IMG/VR virus record: IMGVR_UViG_3300030328_000536
Span: 1-23,578 of that record
Strand: one strand, 5' to 3'
DNA length: 23,578 bases
Source of the DNA: a virus
Shown: one piece after another, positions 1 through 5,658 of the stretch
Layout of the letters: every line of letters begins with the position of its first letter
Numbering within the stretch: the stretch's first letter is position 1
The notes under the pieces: model-generated
Told to the model about the DNA's origin: nothing
The model's database searches: none
What the model saw: only the letters and a program-made list of their open reading frames with translations
Translations under genes and position numbers: made by a program

Positions 1-280
1 GTAGGAAGATTGACATGTTATCTGCACGTTCTTTAGATGCAGATATGATCATTATTTTCTTTTCAGAATCTTTAAAGAGAGTCCAGAGGACGAAGGCTCC
101 TGTGATCCAACTTTTTCCAACTCCACGGAAAGCTTGAATCTGGAGACGTTTAGGTCCATTCTGAAGATAGTCTGCGATTGAGTATTGGGCACGAGTTGGG
201 GAGGGTAAGTCAAGTTGTTCCCACAGAGCTTGTAGGAACAGCTTAAAGTCTTCTTGTAGGGCGGTTAGGACGTTATTCAT
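1..280 (-). CDS. Terminase large subunit (T7 gp19-like, DNA maturase B), N-terminal part
   Basis: This is the ATPase/nuclease motor subunit that packages and cuts concatemeric DNA at the portal. Only about 93 N-terminal residues lie in the window; the gene runs off its left edge. Reading from the ATG at 280, the protein starts MNNVLTALQEDFKLFL and reaches the Walker A segment QAFRGVGKSW, then the block IMIISASKERADNMSIFL. This follows T7 gp19 closely (FRGIGKS, then LIVSASKERADANSIFI), so the family call rests on clear similarity. The start overlaps the stop of the HNH-like gene by 4 bases (ATGA), suggesting coupled translation. In T7 the small subunit lies only a few small genes upstream; here four genes for basic or HNH-like proteins lie between the two subunits. 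Confidence 0.95.
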   Translation of the reverse strand, partial: MNNVLTALQEDFKLFLQALWEQLDLPSPTRAQYSIADYLQNGPKRLQIQAFRGVGKSWITGAFVLWTLFKDSEKKIMIISASKERADNMSIFL

Positions 281-1707
281 TTCTTACGTTTAGGTTTATT
301 TTTAGGAGCGGCTGGTAGTGAGCCACCTTTAGCAACTTGTTTTACTCTAGTCGCACCTCTCATTTTATCACCTTCACCTAAAAATTTCTCACTTTCTTGA
401 ACCATACCTGTTTTCCTCATAGCAGTACCTACATCTTCTGTAGCTTTTAAGAAAGGAACAACTTCTTCTGAATATATTTCAATCATACGGAATATAGCAT
501 TAACATCAGCAGTACCGTCTAGGTATGCATCTCCTATAGCTTTCATGTAGTCAGCAAAGTCTAACATTCCAGCTTGTTCTAATCCTAATTCTCTAAATAA
601 ATTATGTACTTTAGTATGATCGGCTTTTGCCATTACAGTAAGATTACCAATAGTACCAGATGTAGGTATATCAAGCCGTCTTATGTGCTCCATTAAGTTA
701 AGAGCAACTAAAGGTTCTTGAGAAAGTTTCTGTAAGAATATAGATCCACCATCTTTATTTTGAAAAAATGTATGATGCCATTCTTGGCCTTTCTCTCCAA
801 AAGCTTCTAAAGTTTGGTCTAAAAGAGATTGAATCCTAAGTTTATCTCTATTCATTTTAAAAACCTGTTTATCTTGGGTTCTTAGATTAAGAGACGCATA
901 ATCAAACACTTGATCACGTGAAGCGGTCTTTATATTTTTCATTACACGATCTAAGGTTTTTCGTTTACCTCTTTCAGCAAATTTAGGATGATTTTTAGGT
1001 AATTCTGAAAGTTCTGCATGTATATCCATCCAATATTTTAAATTATCTGCACCTTTAATTAAACCTTCTTGACGTGTAATTATTGTATCGACAAGTTCAG
1101 GATTATCCATAGCTTCATCTAGTTGAACATAATTATGACGATCCCATAATTGTCTAGCCCCTGGACTATCAAATTCTTGACGAATTAGTTCAGGATTACC
1201 TTTAGCATCTACTAAACCAGTTTCTATTTCTGGAGTATTGGTTTCTCTATCTAAAGCTCTTTTCCTATGACCAGTCTGGTATTCTACACCAGTTTCAGCA
1301 GGTTTATAATCTTCTAACATATCAGTCAGTTGATCATTCATTCCTTTAGAACGTTGTTGATCTAGAATATCATATATAGCATCTTGAACTTCTGATTCAC
1401 TTTGATTTGAAACGTTTTTAAGCCAAGTCTCTGCTTGTTCAACTGATATATCTCCAGTATTCATACCTGTTGTTATAGCCCTTCTACCTGCGTTATCAGT
1501 AGATGGTCCTCTTAGTGGGAAATAAGTATTGGCTAAATCTCTACTTAAATCTCCTCTTTTAGTTACTTGAGGTAATAAATCTGGAGCTGCACCTGCACCA
1601 CCTTTAACAATTTTTTCACCTACTTCTCCAGCACCTTTTTCTAAAAATTCTTTGCCAATGACTTGTCCAAGCTTTTGTGTAGCTTTGGCTGCAAAACCTC
1701 CTGCCAT
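277..1707 (-). CDS. 476-aa protein with HNH-like (WHH-type) motif, terminase-adjacent
   Basis: I do not recognise the full-length family. The N-terminus (1-45) is Gly/Ala-rich and amphipathic (MAGGFAAKATQKLGQVIGKE); the middle is charged and helical; the C-terminus is basic (KNKPKRKK). Residues 305-375 carry W310-H311-H312, then G354-N355-L356, then H364 and H368 in the segment ADHTKVHNLF. The order HH, N, HxxxH matches treble-clef HNH/WHH nuclease domains, in which the first His is catalytic and the others bind metal or support the site. Established knowledge: HNH nucleases often sit next to terminase genes in tailed phages and assist packaging. Inference: this could be a packaging-associated nuclease or a virion protein carrying one. 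The start is fixed by AGGAGG six bases before ATG. The gene lies directly upstream of the large terminase, with a 4-base overlap. Confidence 0.75.
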   Translation of the reverse strand: MAGGFAAKATQKLGQVIGKEFLEKGAGEVGEKIVKGGAGAAPDLLPQVTKRGDLSRDLANTYFPLRGPSTDNAGRRAITTGMNTGDISVEQAETWLKNVSNQSESEVQDAIYDILDQQRSKGMNDQLTDMLEDYKPAETGVEYQTGHRKRALDRETNTPEIETGLVDAKGNPELIRQEFDSPGARQLWDRHNYVQLDEAMDNPELVDTIITRQEGLIKGADNLKYWMDIHAELSELPKNHPKFAERGKRKTLDRVMKNIKTASRDQVFDYASLNLRTQDKQVFKMNRDKLRIQSLLDQTLEAFGEKGQEWHHTFFQNKDGGSIFLQKLSQEPLVALNLMEHIRRLDIPTSGTIGNLTVMAKADHTKVHNLFRELGLEQAGMLDFADYMKAIGDAYLDGTADVNAIFRMIEIYSEEVVPFLKATEDVGTAMRKTGMVQESEKFLGEGDKMRGATRVKQVAKGGSLPAAPKNKPKRKK

Positions 1708-3932: not shown

Positions 3933-4084
3933 GAAAATAGTTTTTCTTTTACAATTGCGAGTGCTTGGTCATCAAGTTTATTATCAGTTCTCTTTACATA
4001 AGCTTCTAGTACATCGACTATCAACTTCTTAACAGAGTCTGATTTAATAAAGGCGAGAAGGATGGGCTTGATTAATAAGGTCAT
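3929..4084 (-). CDS. Small 51-aa protein between the secreted proteins and the cupin
   Basis: An ORF of 51 codons from ATG 4084 to TGA at 3929-3931, starting MTLLIKPILLAFIKSDSVKK and ending ALAIVKEKLFS. The N-terminal 14 residues are hydrophobic and could insert as a short membrane helix; the rest is a charged amphipathic helix including TDNKLDDQ. It fits perfectly between its neighbours, with ATGA overlaps at both ends, which is strong evidence that it is real. I associate this type (hydrophobic start plus 'K.TDN..DD..' helix) with small conserved hypothetical proteins of marine phages, possibly membrane or lysis related. No function is assigned. Confidence 0.8.
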   Translation of the reverse strand: MTLLIKPILLAFIKSDSVKKLIVDVLEAYVKRTDNKLDDQALAIVKEKLFS

Positions 4085-5004
4085 TTTAGTGGACATTTAG
4101 ATTTACTTGATTGCCAAGGTTTATACCAAGGCTTTGGTGGCTCTTTACATGCAAGAACCTTTTGTTCTGCTTTTTTATATGCAGAAATTGCTATAACATC
4201 ACTACATAAATGGTACACACGTGAACCAGGTAGTAACATAAAGCCTTTTTGTTGAAGTTTAGCACAGTTATCAATTCTAACTAGCTCATAATTCAACTTC
4301 ATCTTTTCATGTTGTTGTGCTGCAATAGCTCTACAACGTCTTAAACCTTCTCTATCTAAGGGTATCATAAAATTAATCTGACCACCCCAGTTCTCAGCCA
4401 TAGTATAGCTGGATGGACTCATAGAACCATCTTCAATCTCCCAAGGTTTGGTATGATTCCCCATATAAAATGGAGAGAAGGTCATGGTACTACCATTACA
4501 GCTTATGTTTGGACCATAAACTTGTCTAGATGGAGCACCATTATTTTGAAATTGGACGGCTTGGTTGGTCACATTGCCCGTTGCAGCCGCCACGGGGTTA
4601 GAAGTATTGTTTGTCTCACCCTCTTCTGCACGAACTGGCGCTACTGAGAGAAGACTGATAAGGAGACCGTAGTAGAGGTAGTGTCGATTTCTCTTTCTAT
4701 CTCTGTTACTGACAGGACTTGGCTGGCTGCTCTTGTCACTACTTCGAGTGAAAAGGGATCTCCAGCTGTGTGAAGGGTAAATACCGAATCGGAATCCACA
4801 ATTCCGCCTGATGTAGCGGATGTATGGGTTATATTCTCCCCACTCCACTTGTTTAAGGCTGACCCGTAGGTTGTCGTCGTGATTTCCTCCACGATCTCTT
4901 GAGTTGTAGTCGTCGTTGAGTTCATTGACCCCTGAGTGAATTGTGGGGTCACGAGCTCTGCTCTTGCTACCGAGGGTGAAAACAGTAGGAAGAGTAATAG
5001 CCAT
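4081..5004 (-). CDS. Secreted protein, start uncertain, reading frame overlaps upstream gene by 364 bases
   Basis: The confident part is the C-terminal ~200 residues. There is a signal-peptide-like segment (RKRNRHYLYYGLLISLLSV ending APVRA, cleavage before EEG). Then comes a secreted domain with NVTNQAVQFQNNGAPSRQVY, a Cys in NISCNGSTMTFSPFYMGN, FMIPLDREGLRRCRA and further Cys, ending KSKCPLK. Marine phages carry this secreted family beside a Thr-rich secreted protein; its function is unknown. The difficulty is the start. No ATG, GTG or TTG exists in this frame just before the signal peptide. The nearest in-frame options are GTG at 4848 and ATG at 5004; the latter is only 8 bases after the ATG of the neighbouring gene. 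Using 5004 gives a 307-aa product whose first ~108 residues are read in the -1 frame through the neighbour. A frameshift or a non-canonical start (ATT at 4782) are alternatives. Confidence 0.6.
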   Translation of the reverse strand: MAITLPTVFTLGSKSRARDPTIHSGVNELNDDYNSRDRGGNHDDNLRVSLKQVEWGEYNPYIRYIRRNCGFRFGIYPSHSWRSLFTRSSDKSSQPSPVSNRDRKRNRHYLYYGLLISLLSVAPVRAEEGETNNTSNPVAAATGNVTNQAVQFQNNGAPSRQVYGPNISCNGSTMTFSPFYMGNHTKPWEIEDGSMSPSSYTMAENWGGQINFMIPLDREGLRRCRAIAAQQHEKMKLNYELVRIDNCAKLQQKGFMLLPGSRVYHLCSDVIAISAYKKAEQKVLACKEPPKPWYKPWQSSKSKCPLK

Positions 5005-5012
5005 TTGTTCAT
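4641..5012 (-). CDS. Threonine-rich secreted protein with signal peptide
   Basis: A 123-aa protein. Residues 1-18 (MNKWLLLFLLFSPSVARA) form a textbook Sec signal peptide with an AxA cleavage site. There is no lipobox Cys, so it is not an Rz1-type lipoprotein. The mature part starts ELVTPQFTQGSMNSTTTTTQ and is rich in Thr/Ser with predicted beta strands, ending STTVSLSVFSQ. I associate this type with conserved small secreted proteins downstream of a holin-like gene in marine phages; its role, perhaps in the periplasm during lysis or in superinfection exclusion, is unknown. ATG at 5012 overlaps the holin-like stop by 4 bases (ATGA). Nearly the whole gene is overlapped in another frame by the following secreted-protein ORF. 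Confidence 0.8.
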   Translation of the reverse strand: MNKWLLLFLLFSPSVARAELVTPQFTQGSMNSTTTTTQEIVEEITTTTYGSALNKWSGENITHTSATSGGIVDSDSVFTLHTAGDPFSLEVVTRAASQVLSVTEIEREIDTTSTTVSLSVFSQ

Positions 5013-5314
5013 TCTTCCTTTTTCTTTGCCATAGGACAGTTAATTGGTTTACCTTTGTCTTTAGAATTACCAGTAGACAAGCCAAAAGTAGCCAGAGCTC
5101 CTGTAAACACTGATGCCACGAACGTGATATCTGAGTTACCGGATTTCTTAACCATGGGCAGTTCCACATAGTTTAAAGTTATTATAAACCCGGACCACAC
5201 TACAACTCCCAAACGCACAAAAGTTCCAAGAATCTGTATTTGTTGTTCTTGATCTTCTATTCCGTCTTTGAGTTTTTTAATGAGTCCTTTTTTTTCTTCT
5301 GGTTTTCCTTCCAT
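5009..5314 (-). CDS. Holin-like small membrane protein
   Basis: A 101-aa protein with a charged N-terminus (EGKPEEKKGLIKKLKDGIEDQEQQ), two hydrophobic segments (about residues 30-49, TFVRLGVVVWSGFIITLNYV; about 62-80, ITFVASVFTGALATFGLST) and a lysine-rich cytoplasmic-type tail (AKKKEE). This topology, with both ends probably cytoplasmic, is that of class II holins, which open the inner membrane to time lysis. T7 has its holin (gp17.5) at the same place, just after the fibre gene, which supports the call; no sequence motif proves it. The ATG at 5314 overlaps the proline-rich membrane protein gene by 58 bases, and there is no good Shine-Dalgarno, so translation may depend on coupling. Confidence 0.65.
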   Translation of the reverse strand: MEGKPEEKKGLIKKLKDGIEDQEQQIQILGTFVRLGVVVWSGFIITLNYVELPMVKKSGNSDITFVASVFTGALATFGLSTGNSKDKGKPINCPMAKKKEE

Positions 5315-5658
5315 TTATTAACTTTAGCTTGTAGTTGCTTTTGAACTTTCTTTTTGATAGGTTCAAATAAAGATTGAGTAACAGTGGTTGTTGCTACTGC
5401 TATGACAGCTGTTGTTACAGCCGTAACTACTACTGCAGTTTCCGGTATTGGCATTTTAATATCCAATACAGGAATCTTTAGAGTAGGAGCTTCTGGCTCT
5501 TCTGTTGTTTCTTCCGCCTCAGTCTCCTCAGGACGCTCTAAATCAGCCGGAGGTACAATCATAGGCTTATAGGCCGGAACGTCCGCTGTAGGCTGTCTGA
5601 GGTACAACTGAGGGATATCTAATGCTTTTGGTAGTTTAGCATCAGGTATCTGAATCAT
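5257..5658 (-). CDS. Proline-rich single-pass membrane protein
   Basis: A 133-aa protein. The N-terminal half is Pro-rich (MIQIPDAKLPKALDIPQLYL, then RQPTADVPAYKPMIVPPADL), followed by an acidic Glu/Thr stretch (EETEAEETTEEPEAP, about 45-58). A hydrophobic Val/Ala/Thr segment at about 74-94 (ETAVVVTAVTTAVIAVATTT) is a likely membrane helix. The C-terminus is a very basic amphipathic helix (KKKVQKQLQAKVNKWKENQ). Proteins with the 'LYLRQPTADVP' signature are conserved in cyanophages near tail and lysis genes without assigned function. The ATG at 5658 overlaps the 56-aa gene by 4 bases and its 3' end overlaps the holin-like gene by 58 bases. It may take part in lysis (for example as a spanin-like spanning element), but this is inference. 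Confidence 0.75.
   Translation of the reverse strand: MIQIPDAKLPKALDIPQLYLRQPTADVPAYKPMIVPPADLERPEETEAEETTEEPEAPTLKIPVLDIKMPIPETAVVVTAVTTAVIAVATTTVTQSLFEPIKKKVQKQLQAKVNKWKENQKKKKDSLKNSKTE

Follow-up and report, generated by a model that had tools for sequence, protein, structure and literature searches.

Two genes for exported proteins, here called A and B, share 364 bases in a marine cyanopodovirus, the second being read in the -1 frame of the first. Comparison with relatives gives a probability of roughly 0.83 that this overlap is real and under selection as dual-coding DNA, and that B starts at ATG 5004 in the clade of the window (the whole stretch of DNA analysed, a 23.6-kb fragment held as a virus record). 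Both frames were found to be conserved and to be protected from stops beyond what chance would give, and the comparative evidence also points to an independent start of the second frame. The best reading is that the phage makes A and B as distinct exported proteins, and their arrangement in the window is one state of a B start that moves.

The nearest named relatives of A and B belong to Prochlorococcus podoviruses of the genera Cheungvirus and Tangaroavirus (NATL1A-7, P-SSP10, P-SSP6 and NATL2A-133), with NATL1A-7 and P-SSP10 as the nearest isolates. On the minus strand, tail-fibre-like genes are followed by a gene for a small protein (5658-5257), a DUF6450 gene (5314-5009), A and then B; the terminase small subunit (3409-3167, minus strand) lies farther along, past B. 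An earlier, sequence-only reading had placed A and B directly behind a holin-like gene. The position is correct, but Pfam assigns this gene to DUF6450, and the label ‘holin-like’ has no basis other than size, position and a transmembrane prediction in the annotation of a homologue. The TGA of the DUF6450 gene overlaps the ATG of A (ATGA), and coupled translation from the former to the latter is possible. The two upstream genes (5009-5314 and 5257-5658) themselves overlap by 58 nt, and the four-gene cassette that includes A and B is strongly compressed. The features, with the evidence for each, are as follows.

5009..5314, minus strand: upstream gene for a DUF6450 small membrane protein (sequence, Pfam)
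5016..5019, minus strand: AGGA, possible shared Shine-Dalgarno sequence of both ATGs (sequence; common context in the clade)
4641..5012, minus strand: gene A, secreted Thr-rich all-beta protein of 123 aa, phrog_650 (sequence, profile match, AF2 model)
4081..5004, minus strand: gene B from ATG 5004, 307 aa, -1 frame relative to A (sequence, comparison of relatives)
5002..5004, minus strand: probable B start codon (+8 from the A ATG), formed from AAA TGG (K3-W4) of A (invariance in the clade)
4846..4848, minus strand: GTG at +164, an alternative start of B supplied by the W56 codon of A (sequence; relative L091)
4684..5004, minus strand: putative N-terminal extension of B, 107 aa, overprinted on A (stop avoidance without clear residue conservation)
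4627..4683, minus strand: signal peptide of B, HYLYYGLLISLLSVAPVRA, overlapping the C-terminal codons of A (sequence, column conservation)
4084..4626, minus strand: mature B, 181 aa, with four invariant Cys and a 35-residue helix, phrog_848/phrog_1755 (profile match, model)

Direct reading of the sequence bore out the geometry described in the sequence-only reading: the overlap occupies 4641-5004 exactly, with B in the -1 frame; the starts ATG 5012 (A) and ATG 5004 (B frame) are 8 bases apart; AGGA at 5019-5016 precedes the two ATGs by 3 and 11 nt; the B frame is stop-free from ATG 5004 through A and open to a stop at 4081; and no ATG, GTG or TTG occurs between 4848 and the B signal peptide. 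From the last base of A codon 3 onward the codons of A fall inside B, and each B codon consists of the third base of one A codon and the first two bases of the next. An NTG in the B frame within A requires an A codon that starts with TG, i.e. Trp or Cys (709 Trp and 29 Cys codons in the survey of relatives, plus 26 cases at stop codons). This is why start codons are scarce near the B signal peptide: A of the window's clade has W4 and W56 as its only residues of this sort, which give the B-frame starts at +8 and +164. Besides ATG 5004, the -1 frame of the window contains GTG 4848 and the non-standard ATT 4782. The frame is open further up, to ATG 5169 inside the upstream gene; openness above 5004 is not conserved, for in 124 relatives the preceding in-frame stop is found at a median distance of 39 nt upstream of the +8 ATG.

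Gene A runs from ATG 5012 to TAG 4641, begins with the signal peptide MNKWLLLFLLFSPSVARA and matches the phrog_650 profile with E 8.6e-32. Rates of approximately 0.1 for amino-acid-changing and 0.8 for synonymous substitutions indicate that strong purifying selection acts on it. The AF2 model of A (pLDDT 86) is all-beta, with two strands of 23-24 residues. Foldseek searches against PDB yielded weak matches only (best E 0.09), namely phage collar proteins and long-stem beta pores, structural matches in VIA reached a Z of at most 3.7, and the good structural matches were exclusively uncharacterised viral proteins, partly from cyanophages. As modelled, A weakly resembles the stems of oligomeric beta pores. 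Its C-terminus, SLSVFSQ, shows strong conservation irrespective of the frame that B occupies. Gene B matches phrog_848 (E 4.3e-56) and phrog_1755 (E 5.6e-54), and a Foldseek search of its structure against PDB gave no match with E<=0.001. Given the likely cleavage of its leader (see below), mature B is probably the same protein in all lineages; it is also found in many T4-like cyanophages, and homologues are sometimes annotated as gp165.

Selection on the second frame was assessed in 128 distinct full-length relatives, which were chosen by the identity of A only, without regard to openness of the other frame. The -1 frame is open over A codons 3-54 in 127 of them, and 127 are stop-free from ATG 5004 to the end of A; the loci are related, so that such counts overstate independence, and tree-based counts agree with them. 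The +1 frame, taken as a control, contains stops in every clade sequence. When the first 52 codons were randomly recoded with synonymous codons, the probability of an open frame was 0.018 with the codon usage of other ORFs, 0.065 with that of A from lineages with a late B start, and 0.36 with the clade's own, already biased usage in A, which is the most conservative choice. If B is translated, the third base of an A codon cannot be T before AA, AG or GA. At such stop-prone third bases T accounted for 0.4% of weighted cases in the clade between +8 and +163. The corresponding values were 22% at the remaining sites of that stretch, 58% at stop-prone sites of other ORFs on the same contigs, and 34-58% at stop-prone sites in the portion of A lying >205 nt upstream in lineages whose B starts late. 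In other lineages the frequency falls to zero below their own B start, partly by definition. On the clade tree, synonymous changes to T numbered 8 at stop-prone sites versus 212 elsewhere (Fisher p=2e-15). It is therefore extremely improbable that one frame alone is a gene and that the other is open by chance or owing to the Thr-rich composition of A, as the recoding tests reject chance openness; moreover, A is under strong purifying selection and mature B is conserved with its invariant Cys, even though ACN codons never yield stops in the -1 frame and public records usually list a single frame, with full annotation of both being rare.

The +8 ATG is present in 131 of 131 clade members. Codon 3 of A, which contributes its first base, is AAA in 130 of these and AGA (Arg) in one, never AAG, and its third base shows 0 changes on the tree versus 42 at codon 2. 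Conservation of the +8 and +164 starts is in itself weak evidence, because any Trp codon gives an NTG in this frame, and the test was for this reason based on the third base of the Lys codon and on stop avoidance. Among 392 loci, an ATG near the A start accompanied a frame open through A in 172 cases and was absent in 5, all of which stem from a mis-chosen Met in A; where the frame was closed, it was absent in 205 and present in 10, so that the ATG is needed but insufficient. Not only the main clade but also several other branches have fully open frames, in every case with an A start (mostly MxKW) that produces an ATG near +8, and in lineages without that Trp (MKKLL, MKKLI) the B frame is closed. 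Shine-Dalgarno strength at +8 is modest (-3.25 vs -2.56 at control positions). Stop avoidance, the invariant ATG and the return of stops above it together indicate that the extension of approximately 107 residues is almost certainly translated. Of the options listed in the sequence-only reading, a dual-coded N-terminal extension from ATG 5004 is thus the one strongly supported in the clade.

Initiation at the internal GTG 4848 (+164), with the frame above it open for another reason, is unlikely for the clade in general and is probably needed by one relative. In L091, alone among the clade members, stops at codons 18 and 41 interrupt the -1 frame inside A. Its B must start at +164 or later, and it has no usable B start above GTG +164. 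Nearly all clade members also retain the +164 NTG in the form of ATG or GTG, including those whose residue 55 of A is not Lys, and other lineages start B at 190-211. However, a start at +164 leaves the stop avoidance, the invariant ATG and the sharp boundary at +8 unexplained, and independent lineages with an extended B often have CTG or TTG at +164 and always ATG at +8. Both the +8 and the +164 starts could be used for B. A non-standard start near the signal peptide, such as ATT 4782, has next to no probability: short leaders do occur in other lineages, but this codon varies among relatives (I in 82, L in 40, V in 3 and M in 2 of 128) and so late a start fails to explain the open frame above it.

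The position of ATG 5004 was placed in a wider context by seven scans of viral contigs and phage records, which gave about 540 loci, 532 of them with both genes. Counting distinct loci, 420 have B in the -1 frame and 36 have it in the +1 frame. Of the 420 -1-frame loci, 419 possess a standard start after the last in-frame stop and ahead of the signal peptide; the exception, L544, has separate genes, with B carrying its own ATG before the signal peptide, and a gap of roughly 540 nt between A and B. The main B start positions are 61-64, 109, 190, 205-211 and ~361 nt before the A stop, and in lineages with a later start (61-211 bases before the A stop) the codon is nearly always an NTG from a Trp, rarely a Cys, codon of A. 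Loci of the +1 frame, most of them P-RSP2-like podoviruses, start B directly before the signal peptide, mostly with ATG 50-53 nt before the A stop. Four others (L469, L487, L488 and L496) are cyanomyovirus-like and start with TTG or GTG; they form a separate branch of the B tree from the P-RSP2-like podoviruses, and the frame of B has therefore probably switched at least twice. The start class changes 29 times on the B tree compared with about 136 times with shuffled labels, which means that the start moves often yet follows ancestry; the direction of its movement could not be polarised on this tree. Mean anti-Shine-Dalgarno energies at B starts of classes 190, 211 and 61 were -6.2, -10.7 and -5.2 kcal/mol, against -1.5, -3.3 and -1.7 kcal/mol at the control positions, and no signal was detected at starts of class 109 or of the +1 frame. 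The starts of these other lineages support separate initiation of B.

Homologues with a clean start just before the signal peptide, which the sequence-only reading had named as evidence against an extension, do exist, namely the +1-frame loci and L544; the extension stands nonetheless, since these loci belong to other lineages. The same loci bear on a -1 ribosomal frameshift from A, which would give an A-B fusion and which we consider highly improbable. The order of A and B is the same everywhere and the overlap is conserved, but at about 36 loci B is read in the +1 frame from a start of its own, L544 has separate genes, and a start is kept in 419 of 420 loci though a frameshift needs none. 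Inspection of the window by eye found no slippery heptamer at the start of A or near its end, and with codon 2 of A being AAG, AAA, AAC or AGA (AAC in the window) the A-rich start is no conserved slip site.

The extension of B from ATG 5004 is hydrophilic (GRAVY -1.1), and its residues vary as the synonymous sites of A do (N/D/H/Y at Thr codons); residue-level constraint on it is weak, absent or not measurable. The ratio of A-synonymous/B-nonsynonymous to doubly synonymous rates was ~0.46 at +11..163, ~1 at +164..320 and ~0.43 in the signal peptide, values that are inconsistent among these stretches and rest on few doubly synonymous sites. Residue-level selection on the extension was dropped as a claim for this inconsistency. 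The signal peptide itself is conserved in the clade (RKRNR.Y.YYG.LISLLS.AP.RA). Its cleavage site was assessed by column conservation, a loose AXA pattern having been abandoned because it matched almost everything. The Ala at -1 is 99% conserved, both in the clade that has the extension and in -1-frame relatives whose leaders are shorter, which makes cleavage after VRA likelier than membrane anchoring; the suggestion that a signal sequence so far from the N-terminus would act as an internal membrane anchor is accordingly disfavoured.

We propose that one Shine-Dalgarno region may serve both ATGs, and that ribosomes coming from, or re-initiating after, the upstream DUF6450 gene would start at either of them. 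Translation of B would then begin in the -1 frame at a separate ATG (5004), 8 nt past that of A, and the 107-residue extension would be a by-product of this start, kept free of stops and otherwise nearly free in sequence. The signal peptide behind the extension would still export B, and signal peptidase would probably remove the whole leader. A more speculative and rather doubtful possibility is that the B start is a moving regulatory element, pulled by selection toward the A start, where one re-initiation would split ribosomes between two frames and so set the A:B ratio of a two-protein envelope complex; the signal peptide of A (W4) and its body would have been edited for starts and stop avoidance, and the leader of 107 residues would have no job or a minor one. 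An envelope role for A and B is a guess from export and position, and a role in the envelope or in lysis is possible.

The late-gene neighbourhood of A and B, behind a small membrane protein and near the terminase, is one that we take to be T7-like. Spanin pairs (Rz/Rz1 of lambda, 18.5/18.7 of T7, LysB/LysC of P2) likewise encode two envelope proteins in different frames of the same DNA, with both +1 and -1 registers known (PMC6139136). A pattern search detected a lipobox in 0 of 429 A proteins and, by a loose pattern, in 3 of 455 B signal regions, i.e. essentially none, and the pair thus falls outside the definition of two-component spanins. It was rejected as such a pair for want of the lipobox Cys of an o-spanin, which is an outer-membrane lipoprotein. 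An i-spanin has an N-terminal transmembrane segment and a periplasmic coiled coil; in B an N-terminal hydrophobic segment and a single 35-residue helix were observed, but its conserved -1 Ala suggests cleavage. Unlike spanins, A is all-beta with a cleavable-type signal peptide, and the B start moves upstream across the whole of its neighbour. The phages in which Kongari et al. could identify no spanin include 20 that infect Prochlorococcus/Synechococcus (PMC6139136).

Overlaps that arise by an upstream shift of a start (5' extension) share their route with the one described here, which, according to PMC2268670 and PMC3887535, consists of the loss of in-frame stops and the gain of a new upstream start. 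In contrast to the known cases, a graded series up to near-complete nesting exists here within one gene family, starts are tied to Trp codons of the host frame, and some lineages use the opposite frame. The overlap is of a known kind, but with its graded series, its frame switches and its link to Trp codons it is an unusually informative variant. The nested genes known from small phages (E in D and B in A of phiX174) are dual-coding with independent internal starts; they overprint a whole new protein, whereas here the overprinted part is the variable leader of an older one. Our literature searches found no report of this A/B overlap.

Among public records, those of NATL1A-7 and P-SSP6 give B from +8 and omit A, that of P-SSP10 gives B from +164 and omits A, and that of NATL2A-133 has A plus a truncated B; in each of the four annotated isolates checked from the group of the window, one of the two proteins is thus missing or cut short. 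Overlapping genes are usually viewed as finished products. One abundant marine phage gene pair here ranges from full separation, via short overlaps in one or the other alternative frame, to almost complete nesting, and such a graded series within a single pair makes the routes and costs of start-codon migration measurable.
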